A DNA stretch of 64,000 nucleotides from an uncultured Fimbriimonas sp. (GTDB taxonomy: Bacteria; Armatimonadota; Fimbriimonadia; Fimbriimonadales; Fimbriimonadaceae): contig CAMFIS010000003.1 in NCBI GenBank assembly GCA_945952345.1, positions 1 to 64,000 of the forward strand, in the 5' to 3' direction. Position 1 is the first letter of the stretch, and every line of letters starts with the position of its first letter. A program made the translations under genes and the position numbers. Shown piece after piece: positions 4,426 to 15,288 of the stretch. The notes beneath the pieces are model-generated. The model was not told the origin of the DNA. It made no database searches and worked only from the letters and a program-made list of their open reading frames with translations.

Positions 4426-5553
4426 TCAACCTTCTACGGCAGATAGAGGGAGAACCTTTCGGAAACTCGCCATCCACGACTGGGCCTCGTCGAACCGCAG
4501 TGAGTATTCGCGTGGTTCTGGATCGCCATCGATCTCGACCGAGACTTTGGCGTGGGTCGGATTCGGATTGCGAGGCCGGAACAGATCCCGGGTGAACAGA
4601 TCGGGCTTGGTCGTCCGCATCCAAACTCGGCGAATCCTTGCATAGGGAATTCGCTCGATCTCGCTCGGACTCTCTTTGGGATGGAAGGCCACAAACATGT
4701 CTTCGGAAAATGGCGAGGGCGCGGATTGTCCCGCCGGATATTGACCGGTCGCTTCCCACTGCCAGATCTTTAGCTTGAGCATCAGGCAATTCGACCGGAC
4801 CGTCCGAAACTGAACCGCGATGAGGTTCATGATCGGACCGAGCATCATGATGAAAGCCGAATTGAAATCCTTTTTGAAGGTGTAGTGCAGCATAAATGCC
4901 ACGAGCATGAGCGAGAATGCCACGACCAAGCTGACCAAAATCCATCCCTCGCTCTTCACAAATCGACTAAATCTGGAAAGCTGAACGTGGTTAGTCTCGC
5001 CACTGGGTCGCTCTCCTTGCAGAATCCTTACCCATCGGTCTCGCTCTTCCACGTTTCGAAAGAACTCGAGGATGCCCTGGTCATCTCCCGGAATATAGAG
5101 CCAGGGCCGGTTGGGAGCTTCGTCGAGGAACTTGGTTGGTAACTTTGCTTTCGAAACAGTCTGTTCGGCGGCGAGCGAAAAGCCCTTGCCCGCCGTAAAC
5201 GCCATGCCTGCATGGAGCCGAATCTCGATTCGATCTTGTGAAGTCGAAGTGGACACGATCGACTCGTTCGTCAAGGCGATCCAGCCTTGGATTGTCGGTC
5301 TAATCAGAACTGCCCCTTCCAGTCCGGCAAGCGCACGGTCGACCTTATCTCGCCGGGCCGCATAGCAGCTTGTCATGAAGACCAGGAAGAGAATAATACC
5401 GGCCGCGATCACCACGAAGCCCATCGCTTCGTTCCAAAAGCTGGCAGCCATGCTACCTGCGATGAAGGTGGCCAGCGTCAGCATCACAAACGCCACGGTT
5501 TTGCGTTCGGTCCACTTCCACCACGGATCGGGTTGCACTTTACTCTTGATCAT
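4426..5553 (-). CDS. Membrane protein of unknown function with a soluble C-terminal domain
   Basis: 375 residues. Two hydrophobic helices lie near residues 20-68, a soluble segment follows, and two more helices lie around residues 205-260. The C-terminal 110 residues (from about FSEDMFVAFHP) look like a small beta-rich domain, perhaps PH-like, but I cannot assign a family. The two pairs of helices, each followed by a beta-rich segment, suggest internal duplication. It is divergent from the histidine leader region and 47 bases upstream of the SGNH gene on the same strand. Function unknown. Confidence 0.75.
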   Translation of the reverse strand: MIKSKVQPDPWWKWTERKTVAFVMLTLATFIAGSMAASFWNEAMGFVVIAAGIILFLVFMTSCYAARRDKVDRALAGLEGAVLIRPTIQGWIALTNESIVSTSTSQDRIEIRLHAGMAFTAGKGFSLAAEQTVSKAKLPTKFLDEAPNRPWLYIPGDDQGILEFFRNVEERDRWVRILQGERPSGETNHVQLSRFSRFVKSEGWILVSLVVAFSLMLVAFMLHYTFKKDFNSAFIMMLGPIMNLIAVQFRTVRSNCLMLKLKIWQWEATGQYPAGQSAPSPFSEDMFVAFHPKESPSEIERIPYARIRRVWMRTTKPDLFTRDLFRPRNPNPTHAKVSVEIDGDPEPREYSLRFDEAQSWMASFRKVLPLSAVEG

Positions 5554-5568
5554 CTGTTAACTGGGTCC

Positions 5569-5599
5569 TTGCCAATTCGTTCCTCAAAAGTGCAATACT
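5569..5599 (+). promoter_or_regulatory. Possible promoter for the histidine leader and operon
   Basis: A TTGCCA hexamer (5569-5574) and an AATACT hexamer (5594-5599) are separated by 19 bases and lie just upstream of the leader peptide start at 5610. The spacing is slightly long, so this is tentative. Confidence 0.3.
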
Positions 5600-5609
5600 T
5601 AAAACTCCG

Positions 5610-5660
5610 ATGAGCGGTTTCTTCCGACATCACCATCATAGCGGCCATCACCACGCTTAA
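5610..5660 (+). CDS. hisL: Putative histidine operon leader peptide with seven His codons
   Basis: An ATG at 5610 opens a 16-codon frame reading MSGFFRHHHHSGHHHA and ending in TAA at 5658-5660. Seven of 16 codons are His, four of them consecutive and three more after Ser-Gly. It ends 85 bases before hisG. This is the layout of the his leader peptide of enterobacteria, where ribosome stalling at His codons senses charged tRNA-His. The His codons overlap a strong hairpin (5646-5675), so stalling would open it. I see no classical T-run terminator, so control could act on translation or through Rho. The frame is real sequence; its translation and regulatory use are inferred. Confidence 0.72.
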   Translation: MSGFFRHHHHSGHHHA

Positions 5661-5714
5661 GCAAGCGTCGTGATGTTCTGTCGCCCCTGATGTCCCCCGT
5701 GCCAGCGTCGGCAC
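5646..5714 (+). promoter_or_regulatory. Attenuator-like RNA structures downstream of the His codons
   Basis: Hairpin 1 (5646-5675) pairs CATCAC/GTGATG and ACGCTT/AAGCGT around one C-C mismatch, with loop AAGC; its left arm contains the last three His codons. Hairpin 2 (5699-5714) is GTGCC-AGCGTC-GGCAC. The heptamer AGCGTCG occurs in both (5664-5670 and 5704-5710), so ACGCT at 5653-5657 could pair with either copy, giving mutually exclusive folds as in attenuators. Confidence 0.5.
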
Positions 5715-5745
5715 CTCTCCCTCTCCAAGCCCCAAAAGCCGATTT

Positions 5746-6606
5746 ATGTCTACCCTCGTTAAGCTCGCACTCCCCACTGGACGGATTCAACAGAACGTCT
5801 ACAAACTCCTCGACGACGCTGGTATTGAAGTTCATGGTGGACCACGCTCCTACCGACCCGCCATCTCTCTCGAGGGTTTCGAAGCCAAGATTTTGAAGAC
5901 GCAGAACATCGTGGAGATGCTGGATATCGGCCGCCGCGACATCGGCTTTGCCGGCGCTGACTGGGTGAAGGAACTGGACGCCGACGTGGTGGAGTTGCTC
6001 GATACCGGGATGGATGGTGTTCGAATCGTGGCGGCGGCTCCGGTTGGATTTCCCGATGCCGAACCTTACCAGGGCCGCCAGCTTATTGTTGCTACCGAGT
6101 ACGTTAAGATTGCCGAGGAGTGGGTTCGCAGCAAGGGTTGGGATGCGAAAGTTATTCGATCCTATGGCACCACTGAGGCATTTCCTCCCGAAGATGCCGA
6201 CTGCATTGTAGATAACACATCCAGCGGCGCGACACTCGAAGCTTCCAAACTCCAGATCATCGACACCCTTCTCAAGTCATCGACCCGAATCTTCGCGAGC
6301 CGGCAAGCCATGGCCGACCCGGAGAAGAAGGCGAAGATCGAGGACTTTGTGCTGATTATTCGCTCGGTTTTGAATGCGCGCACACGCGTGATGGTGGAAG
6401 TGAACGTAAGCAAAAATGACCTCGAAGCGGTGGCTTCGATTATTCCGTGTATGCGGCAGCCCACGATTGCCGCACTTCATGGGGAGGCTGGCTACGTGGT
6501 CAAGGCGGCGGTCTTGAAATCCCAACTCCCAACTCTCATCCCGATCATCAAGCAGAAAGGCGGCACCGACATCGTCGTTTCGAGTCTGTCGAACGTGATT
6601 CCATGA
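5746..6606 (+). CDS. hisG: ATP phosphoribosyltransferase, long form
   Basis: 286 residues. HisG catalyses the first step of histidine synthesis, joining ATP and PRPP to make phosphoribosyl-ATP. The N-terminus (KLALPTGRIQQ) and the GYADWVKEL-like segment (GADWVKELDADVVEL) are typical. A C-terminal HisG_C domain (about residues 210-286, ACT-like) marks the long, hexameric form that does not need HisZ and is usually feedback-inhibited by histidine. The gene is first in the operon, downstream of the His-rich leader. Its stop overlaps the hisH start by four bases (ATGA). No Shine-Dalgarno is obvious before ATG 5746. Confidence 0.97.
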   Translation: MSTLVKLALPTGRIQQNVYKLLDDAGIEVHGGPRSYRPAISLEGFEAKILKTQNIVEMLDIGRRDIGFAGADWVKELDADVVELLDTGMDGVRIVAAAPVGFPDAEPYQGRQLIVATEYVKIAEEWVRSKGWDAKVIRSYGTTEAFPPEDADCIVDNTSSGATLEASKLQIIDTLLKSSTRIFASRQAMADPEKKAKIEDFVLIIRSVLNARTRVMVEVNVSKNDLEAVASIIPCMRQPTIAALHGEAGYVVKAAVLKSQLPTLIPIIKQKGGTDIVVSSLSNVIP

Positions 6607-7202
6607 CCCGCTCGATCGCTGTCATCGACACCGGTGTCGCGAATATCGCATCGGTGCAATCCGCCTTCTCCAAGCTCGGATACGAAACCCACTTCGCCCA
6701 GTCCGACGACGAAGTGTTTGAAACCAACGCCGTCATTCTCCCCGGCGTCGGATCGTTTGCCGCCGGAATGGCGGCACTCAACAAGCTTGGCTTCGCTCGC
6801 GCGCTCAAGCTTCGCGCCGAGTCCAGCAAAGCGACACTCGCCGTCTGCCTCGGCATGCAATTGCTGTGCGAGTCGAGTGAAGAGAGTCCTGGTGTCGAAG
6901 GCCTGGGAGTCCTTCCCGTTTCGATTCACCGCTTTGGCGAGCATGTGCGCGTGCCCCACTTCGGATGGAACCAAGTTTCGTCTCCATCATCCTTTGTCGG
7001 CGAAGGCTACGCCTACTTCGCCAATTCGTACCGCCTGGAGAAAGCGCCGTATGGTTGGGAAGTCGCGACGTGCGACCATGGCGGTGAATTCGTCGCCGCG
7101 GTCCGGCATGGAAGTGTGTTGGCCGCGCAGTTCCACCCCGAAATTTCGAGCACGTTTGGTCGGCACGTTCTGGAGACTTGGCTGGAGGGTGTGAAGTGGT
7201 AG
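6603..7202 (+). CDS. hisH: Imidazole glycerol phosphate synthase, glutaminase subunit
   Basis: 199 residues, class I glutamine amidotransferase. HisH releases ammonia from glutamine and channels it to HisF. Visible motifs: oxyanion strand LPGVGSFAAG, nucleophile Cys in AVCLGMQLLCES, and the catalytic His-Glu pair in QFHPEIS. The start ATG at 6603 overlaps the hisG stop, indicating translational coupling. Unusually, about 480 bp of repeat-rich DNA separate it from its partner hisF. Confidence 0.96.
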   Translation: MTRSIAVIDTGVANIASVQSAFSKLGYETHFAQSDDEVFETNAVILPGVGSFAAGMAALNKLGFARALKLRAESSKATLAVCLGMQLLCESSEESPGVEGLGVLPVSIHRFGEHVRVPHFGWNQVSSPSSFVGEGYAYFANSYRLEKAPYGWEVATCDHGGEFVAAVRHGSVLAAQFHPEISSTFGRHVLETWLEGVKW

Positions 7203-7227
7203 CCTCGTCGCTGCAAGGTTCAAATAA

Positions 7228-7275
7228 CCCTCACCCGGTTCGTTCCTCACCATCCTCTCCCAAGGAAGAGGCATC
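7228..7275 (+). repeat. CCTCACCCGGTTCG palindromic element, intergenic copy
   Basis: It begins CCCTCACCCGGTTCG and ends in an imperfect hairpin (CCTCTCC..GGAAGAGG). The same element, reversed, lies in frame inside maf at 59872-59920. Confidence 0.65.
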
Positions 7276-7354
7276 TTGTTTCGACCGTAATTTGAAAGCT
7301 ATTCAATCGCCACACTTCCAAAATAGCAATTCGATATGGTTACGTCCAAGTCTG

Positions 7355-7505
7355 ATCCGGAGGATCACAGCTGGTAGCCAGGGTGTCGCAGCGAGGAACG
7401 AGCGGAGACCCCTGGATAGAATCCGTAATCGCAAAAGTCCGAGGAGCGACACGCCCGCCGAAGCGAGGCACGAGCGAAGGCAGGGAGCGACCCCGCCGAT
7501 AGGCG
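7355..7505 (-). repeat. Dispersed GC-rich element, copy 1
   Basis: Read on the minus strand it contains CGCCTATCGGCGGGGTCGCT, then TCCAGGGGTCT, CGACACCCTGGCTAC and GATCCTCCGGATC. The same blocks in the same order occur on the plus strand at 40573-40690. This copy carries about 40 extra bases in its first half. Confidence 0.7.
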
Positions 7506-7550
7506 AAAGAGAGCATTTTGAAGTTGGTGATACTAGAACGCAAGTAGTTA

Positions 7551-7613
7551 ACCACCCCCTCCGGTTCCTTCGTTCCTCAGTCATCGACTCCCCCAGGGGC
7601 GTAGCGTGGTTAG
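7551..7613 (+). repeat. CCAGGGGCG-GAGCGTGGT repeat, copy 1
   Basis: It starts ACCACCCCCTCCG and ends CCCAGGGGCGTAGCGTGGT. The two ends are imperfectly complementary, so the element can fold on itself. Other copies are at 45502-45567 and 60351-60452, with a divergent one near 63577. Confidence 0.6.
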
Positions 7614-7686
7614 TGCCCTTGAGCAAAATTCAGTTCCAGCACGAACCGGGGGATTGGCGACAATCTCGAACGGAAAGGAGCCAGCC

Positions 7687-8439
7687 ATGGTAACCAAGCG
7701 AATCATCCCCTGCCTCGACTGCAAAGACGGTCGGGTGGTGAAAGGCATCCAATTCCAGGGCCTCACCGACGCCGGTTCCCCGTCTGAACTCGCCGCGAGA
7801 TACGAACTTGAAGGTGCCGACGAACTCGTCGTCCTCGACGTTGGCGCGACGGGCGAGATCCGAAACATTCAAATTCAGACGGTAAGGGATGTAAGAAAAG
7901 AACTCTCGATTCCCCTCACCGTTGGCGGCGGCGTAAGAGCCGTCGAAGACATCGAAAAGCTCCTCCACGCCGGAGCCGACAAAGTCTCGATGAACTCGGC
8001 CGCTGTGGTCCGCCCTGAACTAATCCGGGAATCCAGCCAAGCCTTCGGGGCGCAATGCACGGTGGTCGCCGTCGACACCAAACGCTTCGGCAAGAAGTGG
8101 CAGGTTCTCACCAAATCCGGCACTGAAGTGCAGAACCTAGATACTATCGATTGGGCCAAGCAGATCGAGGACCTCGGCGGGGGAGAAATCCTTCTCACCA
8201 GCTTCGACCGCGACGGAACCCAGCAGGGCTACGACCTCGAACTGCTCCTCGCCGTCACCGACGCGGTCAAGATTCCCGTCATCGCCTCTGGCGGTGCTAA
8301 AGTCACCCAAGACCTCATTCACGCTTTCGAAGCGGGGGCCGACGCCGTCCTCGCCGCATCGATGTTCCACTACCAAATGACCACCATCGGAAAAGTTAAA
8401 GAAGAACTCCGGGCCGCCGACATCGAGGTCCGCCTATGA
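7687..8439 (+). CDS. hisF: Imidazole glycerol phosphate synthase, cyclase subunit
   Basis: 250 residues, a (beta/alpha)8 barrel. HisF uses ammonia from HisH to convert PRFAR into IGP and AICAR. The N-terminal KRIIPCLDCKDGRVVKG is diagnostic; the catalytic Asp is in CLDCKDG and the second in SFDRDGT (about residue 176-180). Phosphate-binding loops GGGVR and ASGGAK are present. The ATG at 7687 has a strong Shine-Dalgarno (GGAAAGGAG). Its stop overlaps the next gene's start (ATGA). Confidence 0.97.
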   Translation: MVTKRIIPCLDCKDGRVVKGIQFQGLTDAGSPSELAARYELEGADELVVLDVGATGEIRNIQIQTVRDVRKELSIPLTVGGGVRAVEDIEKLLHAGADKVSMNSAAVVRPELIRESSQAFGAQCTVVAVDTKRFGKKWQVLTKSGTEVQNLDTIDWAKQIEDLGGGEILLTSFDRDGTQQGYDLELLLAVTDAVKIPVIASGGAKVTQDLIHAFEAGADAVLAASMFHYQMTTIGKVKEELRAADIEVRL

Positions 8440-9695
8440 TCATTCCTTCGATCGATCTTCAGGACGGCAAGGCCGTTCAGCTCATCGGCGGTAAGGACTT
8501 TGCCATCGACGGCGGTGACCCGAATAACTGGGCGCGCGAGTTCGGATTGGCGTCCGAGATTGGCGTCATCGACCTCGACGCGGCGATGGGTAAAGGCTCC
8601 AATCGAGATGTCATCGTCTCCCTGTTGAAGGGTCGACGTTGCCGAGTAGGCGGTGGCATTCGGTCGGTCGAAGATGCCCTCTTCTATCTCAATGCCGGTG
8701 CTACTCAGGTCATCATCGGCACCAAAGCCACCCCGGAACTTCTGTCTCAACTGCCGAAGGAAAGGGTCATCGCTGCCCTCGACACCAAGCACGATGAAGT
8801 CGTGGTCGACGGTTGGGTCACGAACACCAAGGCTCGAATCGAAGACAAGATCGAGGAGCTGAAGCCCTACGTTGGAGGATTTCTCATCACATTCGTCGAG
8901 CTCGAGGGCCGGATGAATTCGATCGACATCGAACGTTCCCGTCGATTGAAGGAGCTCTGCAGAGACGTGAAGCTTACGGTTGCCGGTGGGGTCGCGAGGA
9001 CGGAGGAGATCGCCGAGCTGGATGCTTTGGGCATCGATGTGCAGGTCGGGATGGCGCTTTACTCGCGAAAGATGAACTACGCGGACGCGGTGATTGCTCC
9101 GCTTGTGAAAAGGATTCCAGAAGGTCCGTGGGCAACGGTCGTCTGTAACGAACACGGCGTTGCGCTCGGTCTGGCCTGGTCGACAATTGAGTCGATTCGT
9201 CTAGCTTTTGCGGAACAAAGAGGTATTTATTGGTCCCGTTCGCGCCAGGAGATTTGGCGCAAAGGCGCCACATCGGGAGCGACCCAAGAATTGCTGCGGG
9301 TCGACCTCGATTGCGACCGCGACGCGATTCGCTTTACGGTACGACAGAACGGCAGCGGCTTTTGCCACCTCGACACCACCACCTGCTGGGGCGAGGCAAC
9401 CGGATTTACCAAGCTTGAAGAGACGATGGCACATCGAAAGACCAACGCGGTGCCCGGTAGCTATACCAACCGCCTCTTTAACGATGGCGATCTCCTCCAT
9501 TCGAAGATCAATGAGGAAGCGAAGGAGCTGACCGAAGCCACCGAGCGGGATCACATTACGATGGAGGCCGCCGACGTACTATATTTCACACTCGCCAAAT
9601 TAGCAAAGGAAGGAATTCCATTGAGCGATGTGTGCGATGAGCTCGACTTTCGGGCTCGCAAGGTCACCCGCCGACCAGGAGACAAGAAATCGTGA
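8436..9695 (+). CDS. hisA-hisIE: Trifunctional HisA-HisI-HisE fusion protein
   Basis: 419 residues in one frame. Residues 1-228 are HisA (ProFAR isomerase): IIPSIDLQDGKAVQL with catalytic Asp7, VDGWV with Asp125, and phosphate loops VGGGI and VAGGV. Residues 231-320 are HisI (phosphoribosyl-AMP cyclohydrolase): YWSRSRQEIWRKGATSG, the DCDRD metal site (292-296), and Cys293, Cys310-His311 and Cys317. Residues 327-419 are HisE (phosphoribosyl-ATP pyrophosphohydrolase) with the EEAKEL and EAADVLYF helices. It would thus carry steps 2, 3 and 4 of the pathway. HisIE fusions are common, but a HisA fusion to HisIE is not one I know. No frameshift or start signal is visible at the junction. It overlaps hisF and hisD by four bases each. 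Confidence 0.93.
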   Translation: MIIPSIDLQDGKAVQLIGGKDFAIDGGDPNNWAREFGLASEIGVIDLDAAMGKGSNRDVIVSLLKGRRCRVGGGIRSVEDALFYLNAGATQVIIGTKATPELLSQLPKERVIAALDTKHDEVVVDGWVTNTKARIEDKIEELKPYVGGFLITFVELEGRMNSIDIERSRRLKELCRDVKLTVAGGVARTEEIAELDALGIDVQVGMALYSRKMNYADAVIAPLVKRIPEGPWATVVCNEHGVALGLAWSTIESIRLAFAEQRGIYWSRSRQEIWRKGATSGATQELLRVDLDCDRDAIRFTVRQNGSGFCHLDTTTCWGEATGFTKLEETMAHRKTNAVPGSYTNRLFNDGDLLHSKINEEAKELTEATERDHITMEAADVLYFTLAKLAKEGIPLSDVCDELDFRARKVTRRPGDKKS

Positions 9696-11020
9696 TTCCA
9701 ATTCTTAAGTGGGCTGAGACTTCTGCGGACGTACGTTCCAGGATTCTTGGCCGCGCCCAAGCTTCCTTTGCAGCCATCGAGCCCGATGTTCGATATTGGA
9801 TCGGCGAGATTCGAGCCCGGGGCGATCAAGCCATTCTCGATTACGTCAACCGATTCGATCTCCGCGATGGCATAATCGGCAAGTTCTCCGCCGAGCAGTT
9901 CACGGTTGGGAAGTTCCGCGTGACCGAGCTCGACATCGAACACGCTTATGACACCATCGACCGCGACCTACTGCTGAGCATCCGCAAGCAGGTCGAGCTG
10001 TCGCGCAAGTTCCACGAGGCGTACGCCGCGAACCTCCCTTGGTCATTTGAGATCGAGCAAGTGGCGGGCGTGACAGCCGGATATCGCCGGTTACCCGTCG
10101 CCTCGGCTGGACTCTATGTCCCTGCGGGCAAGGCTCCCCTCCCCACCGTCGCCCAGATCCTTACGGTCGCCGCGAAGTCGGCCCACGTTCCACGAACCGT
10201 AGTCTGCTACCCACCCACTACCGAGATCAGCGAAACCGCCATTTTGGTTGCCGCTAACGAGGCAGGTGCGGACGAGATTTATAGGGTCGGGGGCATCGCG
10301 GCGATTGCCGCTCTGGCGTACGGAACCGAGACGATTTCACCGGTGGATAAGATCGCCGGACCGGGCAATCCTTGGGTTCAAGCCGCAAAGCTCCTCGTTT
10401 CTGGACAGGTTGGAATCGATATGATTGCGGGTCCGAGCGAGGCGATGATCGTCGCAGACGATAGCGCTAAGCCAGCATACATTGCGGCCGACATTCCCGC
10501 CCAATGTGACCCCGGCTCGGATTCGGCGGGTGTGCTTGTCACGACATCCCCGGCTTTGACCGACAAGGTCAGGGCCGAGATCGCCAAGCAAATGGCAACC
10601 CTCGACCGCCAGGGCTATCTGGAGAAGTCGCTCAGCCAATTCTCAGCCCTCATCGTCGTGGATTCTGAAGATGAACTCGTTGAGTTGATGAACGAGTACG
10701 CACCCGAACACCTCGAAATCCACCTCGCGAATCCTGCAGCCTTTCTCGAAAAAGTGAAGAACGCCGGATCCTGCTTCCTCGGCAATGACTCGCCGATCGC
10801 GGCGGGCGACTACGCGACGGGCACCAACCACACGCTACCCACCGGAACCGCAACGCGCTACTCCTCGGCGGTTTCTCCGGAAACGTTCACCAAGACGATT
10901 CAGTATCAGCACGCGACGAAGGATGGCCTGAAGGAACTGCTGCCGATCGTCGAGCATGTTTCGGACGCTGAGGGATTGGACGCCCACAAGCGGTCCGTGC
11001 AGATTCGATTTGAAGAATAG
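9692..11020 (+). CDS. hisD: Histidinol dehydrogenase
   Basis: 442 residues. HisD performs the last two oxidations, from histidinol to histidine, using NAD+ and zinc. Typical motifs: GLYVPAGKAPLPT, IAGPGNPWVQAAK, IDMIAGPSE, the catalytic EYAPEHLEI and the zinc-site GTNHTLPT. It starts at GTG 9692, overlapping the previous stop (GTGA). hisB and hisC are not in this operon and must lie elsewhere. A two-hairpin repeat 12 bases after the stop may terminate the transcript. Confidence 0.97.
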   Translation: MIPILKWAETSADVRSRILGRAQASFAAIEPDVRYWIGEIRARGDQAILDYVNRFDLRDGIIGKFSAEQFTVGKFRVTELDIEHAYDTIDRDLLLSIRKQVELSRKFHEAYAANLPWSFEIEQVAGVTAGYRRLPVASAGLYVPAGKAPLPTVAQILTVAAKSAHVPRTVVCYPPTTEISETAILVAANEAGADEIYRVGGIAAIAALAYGTETISPVDKIAGPGNPWVQAAKLLVSGQVGIDMIAGPSEAMIVADDSAKPAYIAADIPAQCDPGSDSAGVLVTTSPALTDKVRAEIAKQMATLDRQGYLEKSLSQFSALIVVDSEDELVELMNEYAPEHLEIHLANPAAFLEKVKNAGSCFLGNDSPIAAGDYATGTNHTLPTGTATRYSSAVSPETFTKTIQYQHATKDGLKELLPIVEHVSDAEGLDAHKRSVQIRFEE

Positions 11021-15254: not shown

Positions 15255-15288
15255 GCGCCGCTCTTGCCCAAGAGCGGCGCCTTTTTTT
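15255..15288. terminator. Strong intrinsic terminator, probably bidirectional
   Basis: A 12-bp perfect stem (GCGCCGCTCTTG and its complement) with a CC loop is followed by CTTTTTTT on the plus strand and by an AT-rich TAATATTTTG tract on the minus strand. It lies just after the probable anti-sigma gene (minus) and can also stop plus-strand transcripts from the gap region. Confidence 0.9.

Follow-up and report, generated by a model that had tools for sequence, protein, structure and literature searches.

A conserved histidine-rich leader frame upstream of hisG in Fimbriimonas, with a putatively changed output

The stretch of DNA analyzed here (the window, 64,000 nt from an uncultured Fimbriimonas sp. 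of the sparsely studied phylum Armatimonadota) includes a his operon with the gene order hisG-hisH-hisF-hisAIE-hisD (Table 1). The nearest long frame upstream (4426–5553) is on the opposite strand to hisG, so that 5554–5745 separates two divergent genes; the leader features discussed below are found in this intergenic region. Within the operon, a single frame matches HisA (TIGR00007 over 2–217) and then HisI plus HisE (HisIE over 241–408), and its predicted product is possibly a trifunctional HisA-HisI-HisE fusion. Between hisH and hisF are about 480 nt (7203–7686) with no obvious gene.

Table 1. Features of the hisG upstream region and his operon in the Fimbriimonas window.
Feature	Position	Strand	Remarks
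Weak -35 element, TTGCCA	5569–5574	+	Putative promoter, from alignment; TTGACA in three relatives
Extended -10 element, TGC-AATACT	5591–5599	+	Putative promoter; conserved in all six species
Leader ORF MSGFFRHHHHSGHHHA	5610–5660	+	16 codons; start ATG at 5610, stop TAA at 5658–5660; kept in 6/6 relatives with the same HisG type
Hairpin 1 (segment 1:2)	5646–5675	+	Alignment of six, covariation
C-rich, G-poor stretch to the hisG ATG	5676–5745	+	No Shine-Dalgarno sequence; candidate Rho loading region
Hairpin 2, GTGCC-AGCGTC-GGCAC	5699–5714	+	Compensatory GCGCC/GGCGC in G002
hisG (long form)	5746–6606	+	TIGR00070, TIGR03455 over cut-off
Rest of his operon	6603–11020	+	hisH, hisF, hisA-hisI-hisE fusion, hisD
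hisH	6603–7202	+	
hisF	about 7687–8439	+	
hisA-hisI-hisE fusion	8436–9695	+	
hisD	9692–11020	+	

The original prediction for this region was of a short His-rich frame with seven His codons, 85 nt upstream of hisG, and both the sequence itself and shuffling bear this out. The leader has its run of codons for the operon's own amino acid in two clusters, four at 5628–5639 and three at 5646–5654, and 85 nt separate its end from the hisG ATG. When the upstream region was shuffled 20,000 times (first-order), a short ATG frame with at least seven His codons came up once. On both strands of 464 kb of this genome (the basis, with a crude gene finder of our own, of all genome-wide statistics given here), the leader is the only ATG frame of 25 codons or fewer with at least six.

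Twenty genomes of the genus were sampled, of which six, including the window genome, have this type of HisG. All six have the leader, with frame and regulatory codons conserved (MSGFFRHHHHSGHHHA, MTGFFRHHHHSHHHHA, MNGFFHHHHTSHHLA, MLNLLHHHHIHHHCA, MLSLHHHHHIHHHCA, MLNLHRHHHIHRHCA); no His leader is found at the seven same-genus loci examined that have the other HisG type. HisG identity among the leader-bearing relatives is 73–90%. CAT and CAC are freely exchanged between species in the first His cluster, and the G015 leader has Arg codons in place of two of the His codons. Alignment of the hisG upstream regions of relatives had been suggested as a check: the His frame is conserved in all six, as is a stem with compensatory changes. 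The leader frame looks real and functional.

The stem is that of hairpin 1, in which the second His cluster, together with the Ala codon and part of the stop, is base-paired to the 15 nt following the stop (CATCAC-C-ACGCTT / AAGCGT-C-GTGATG, 30 nt with one C.C mismatch); the stop codon is in and beside the loop. The last His codons do therefore form one arm of a 30-nt hairpin, as first proposed, at exactly 5646–5675. In the alignment of six, 85.9% of cells are paired and 4 of 13 pairs have changed on both sides; the covariation score is higher than in 500 of 500 shuffles and in all slid controls (sliding the partner by 1–3 columns destroys the signal), but with the six species in two sub-clades these counts represent few independent events. 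One pair of the G015 stem has gone from A-T to G-C at the price of a His codon, now Arg, which suggests that the stem matters as such. The regulatory codons thus lie within a conserved RNA structure. In the window genome, the 3′ arm of hairpin 1 (5658–5681) can also pair with hisG codons from about +43 (5789–5824; -26 kcal/mol, z -3.9); this strong pairing is missing in the relatives.

The best conserved block upstream of the leader is TGCAA(T/G)ACT, kept in all six species and ending 10–12 nt 5′ of the leader ATG. Read as an extended -10 element, it would put the RNA start 2–5 nt before the AUG, at a predicted position of about 5605–5608, making the transcript near-leaderless. Leaderless transcripts are probably common in Fimbriimonas, to judge by a peak of TANNNT at -12 from start codons: it is about ninefold over its surroundings in the window genome, and clearly enriched in samples of relatives (9–10% vs. 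about 1–2%; G000 window with L162–L181, and five relatives with L182–L201). Shine-Dalgarno-like motifs are scarce (17% vs. 8% at a control position).

What is missing is the classical output. No intrinsic terminator (hairpin plus U-tract) is found between leader and hisG: five of the six Fimbriimonas loci have no U-tailed terminator, and the sixth (G018) has a C/T-mixed tail only. Positive controls for this search were most of the 34 related loci described below, and the ilvB leaders of the same genus. The absence of a T-run after the leader, noted in the original prediction, thus holds for the window, and the output step must differ from the textbook one. The genus is not without intrinsic attenuation, since its ilvB leaders have terminators. 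Ten genus genomes were examined for ilvB, and in all of them a short frame rich in Leu, Ile and Val codons lies upstream of it (L119–L126, L128, and L127 on G000 contig C13), with an antiterminator strand resembling CCGGGAAG after the stop codon and then a strong terminator; in most, this terminator reads CCTTCCCGG..CCGGGAAGG, and in most it has a T-run. By their sequences these are predicted to be textbook ilv attenuators in the Armatimonadota, and in several genomes they are apparently near-leaderless. A Trp leader was looked for before trpE, with no consistent candidate.

No antiterminator (2:3) was found either. Duplex energies for such a pairing are no better than shuffled in the six (z about -0.3 to +1.0); in many of the related loci z is -2 to -5. 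An antiterminator formed by the leader end or by the freed 3′ arm of hairpin 1 was rejected, there being no conserved other partner from hairpin 1 up to hisG +120. Hairpin 2 is at the site of the terminator in other phyla, with a C-rich tail and no U-tail. It is kept as a small stem, with a longer replacement hairpin in G001, G018, and G015, and its folding does not respond to simulated ribosome position, so that no switch was identified beyond hairpin 1. A switch based on the heptamer AGCGTCG (5664–5670 and 5704–5710), whose two copies were originally thought to permit alternative folds, is not supported: the second copy is the unconserved loop of hairpin 2, reading ACCGTC in the nearest relative (G002), and the energies are like those of shuffled sequences. 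The RF00514 (His_leader) covariance model does not match, and no Rfam family of any kind, T-box included, matches in 5000–6300 at E up to 1.

Outside the genus, a His-rich leader roughly 100–250 nt before hisG was found for 30 of the HisG relatives fetched from public genomes, in the Planctomycetota (mainly Phycisphaerae), Myxococcota/Deltaproteobacteria, Pseudomonadota, Acidobacteriota, and Spirochaetota; four more belong to other Armatimonadota within the order of Fimbriimonas, for a total of 34 related loci in at least six phyla. Most (L039, L042, L048, L055, L066, L069, L087, L094, L096, L100, L107, L111, and others) have a leader frame, then a hairpin of His codons with TGATGGTG around the stop codon, a frame end that reads GGCCGG or a covarying variant, and a terminator CGCCGGCC..GGCCGGCG with a T-run; in many, the complementarity of the frame end to the terminator's 5′ arm goes far beyond that of shuffled sequences. 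Most of these are, as far as sequence can tell, textbook attenuators. In 22 of the 34, the best promoter, chosen without regard to frame, ends 6–10 nt before an in-frame start of the His leader. Fourteen such loci were compared with Rfam, and no family matched. On the HisG tree the His-leader trait is scattered, with at least 20 changes, so it has been lost or transferred often; the six Fimbriimonas sequences are one clade (support 100) on a long branch. A family model built from the related attenuators (R1) gave hits in 9 of 291 Armatimonadota genomes, most of them with marginal E-values. The window was not among its matches at E 0.001; weak matches were seen to G002 (E 0.0048 in 23 kb) and to the window (E 1.1, leader part alone).

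The his-attenuation logic read from the window alone is supported on two sides: leader, His codons, and hairpin are kept in six of six species, and complete his attenuators occur in the HisG clade at large. Very probably, MSGFFRHHHHSGHHHA is the regulatory His leader of hisGHF(AIE)D, sensing charged tRNA-His via ribosome speed. In its working it would resemble a His leader attenuator, but the output features that define the classical ones are missing.

The original prediction was that this output may be translational or Rho-dependent, and it is the second possibility that the composition of the leader-hisG gap fits better. In the 60 nt before hisG the excess of C over G is 0.27 (mean 0.01, sd 0.10), second of 205 operon-first upstream regions in this genome; in five relatives the corresponding rank is 1 to 5 in samples of 18–32 upstream regions. 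The gap has more C than G and is G-poor in all six, with a weaker excess of C over G in G001, G018, and G015 (0.12–0.13 vs. 0.27–0.33). A rho gene is present, over cut-off. The region thus combines C-rich, G-poor, mostly unpaired RNA with a rho gene, as is necessary but not sufficient for a Rho-dependent leader; gap composition alone is no proof of Rho use, and for Rho to load there the gap is on the short side. With a rho gene but no terminator, the simplest account that also gives the right direction of control is Rho termination of the untranslated leader. Overall, this leader seems likely to combine a classical His sensor with an altered output, probably one that depends on Rho. The more specific proposal, termination by Rho when histidine is replete and its blocking by a ribosome parked on the His codons in starvation, is offered tentatively as something that may quite possibly be correct.

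From these features we infer a transcription start, polymerase pausing, Rho action, and direction of control as follows. With the start nearly at the leader AUG, the first ribosome would load on the 5′ end of the nascent RNA. Formation of hairpin 1 would depend on the ribosome's place on the leader, and the hairpin would probably also pause RNA polymerase, letting the ribosome catch up. When histidine is replete, ribosomes would finish the leader and leave, exposing naked C-rich, G-poor RNA as far as hisG; Rho could load there, and transcription would stop before or early in hisG. In histidine starvation, a ribosome parked on the His codons would block Rho, and the operon would be made.

The alternatives are, in order of likelihood, a translational output, a weak terminator without a U-tract, and a decayed relic. 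Under translational attenuation, the place of the ribosome on the leader would open or close the hisG start by refolding, with no transcription step. The terminator is indeed missing, attenuators with a sequestering hairpin in its place have been described (PMC9413887), and in the window GTCGGC (5707–5712) can pair with GCCGAT (5738–5743) just before the ATG. This pairing is not conserved, however, and folding predicts little change in the hisG start region, which is about 69–87% unpaired in each of the six species wherever the simulated ribosome stands. Folding gives no support to a state in which the hisG start is hidden, and a translational output seems unlikely.

Less likely again is that hairpin 2 or hairpin 1 stops RNA polymerase without a proper U-tract. 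Hairpin 2 is where the relatives have their terminator, and the weak alignment of model R1 to G002 extends across it, but the tails are C-rich and the stem is of only five pairs in the window. TTTTTT directly follows hairpin 1 in G001 and G018, but there is no T-run there in the other four species, and a terminator at hairpin 1 would have the wrong effect: the hairpin would form on a stall at the first His codons, turning the operon off in starvation. The same genus moreover uses U-tailed terminators, both in the ilvB attenuators and elsewhere in the window (15255–15280).

The leader could also be a relic, if the attenuator came in together with this hisG, then lost its terminator and now stands idle. 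Relatives in other phyla do keep the terminator and antiterminator missing here, and in G015 two His codons have become Arg codons. A 16-codon frame with no function would be expected to decay, however, and the leader, its His codons, the promoter spacing, and the hairpin have all been kept despite HisG differences of up to 27%, leaving this the least probable of the three. Small histidine-rich proteins exist, but that the frame is a metal-binding microprotein unrelated to his regulation, or a product of chance, is scarcely credible when it goes with a single HisG type in different species and with hisG in different phyla, and arises in one of 20,000 shuffles.

The leader resembles several known systems in part. 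The hisL leader of E. coli and its counterparts in the Enterobacteria and other gammaproteobacteria (RF00514) have in common with it a short His frame before hisG and a hairpin between His codons and the following RNA; the Fimbriimonas leader differs in its near-leaderless start and in having no Rfam match, U-tailed terminator, or antiterminator. The His-leader attenuators of some Firmicutes (PMC9413887; hisZ/hisS in PMC2965389) are likewise His-codon leaders outside the Proteobacteria, but in another lineage and with predicted terminator and antiterminator hairpins. The attenuators of the same HisG clade (e.g., L087, L066, L055, L100, L107, L011) share the leader position and a hairpin 1 over His codons and stop, and are mostly near-leaderless; they keep CGCCGGCC..GGCCGGCG terminators with a T-run and, mostly, a GGCCGG-like antiterminator strand, whereas the Fimbriimonas six have neither. 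Mycobacteria have leaderless polycysteine attenuators (Canestrari et al., 2020, cited in PMC9031893), in which a leaderless short frame with runs of codons for one amino acid likewise acts on a downstream operon, but for cysteine and in another phylum. For the output, a parallel is E. coli toiL-topAI (PMC12121999), a known case of an upstream ORF controlling Rho-dependent termination, where ribosome stalling relieves termination as proposed here; toiL, however, senses antibiotics and hides a ribosome-binding site, and no such hiding is predicted for hisG.

Reports of leader peptides for amino acid operons come mostly from Proteobacteria, Actinobacteria, and a few Firmicutes (PMC2965389, PMC9413887), and those of his leaders from Proteobacteria and some Firmicutes; upstream of the his operons of Actinobacteria, a search gave no conserved RNA structure (PMC9413887, PMC2965389, PMC1262725). 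No description of a his leader in Armatimonadota or Planctomycetota was found in the open literature, in agreement with the original suggestion of novelty for this lineage; Vitreschak (2004) and Lopatovskaya (2010) may list part of the wider family. It is conceivable, if on balance somewhat doubtful, that near-leaderless his attenuators travel with one HisG clade across phyla, and that one Fimbriimonas branch kept the sensor and swapped terminator and antiterminator for a Rho output.

The same sensing principle now extends to the Armatimonadota and, along with one HisG clade, to several more phyla, in an RNA element with no matching Rfam family. That related members occur with and without a terminator suggests that evolution can separate an attenuator's sensor from its output, and the terminator-bearing and terminator-less leaders are a defined pair for testing this separation.
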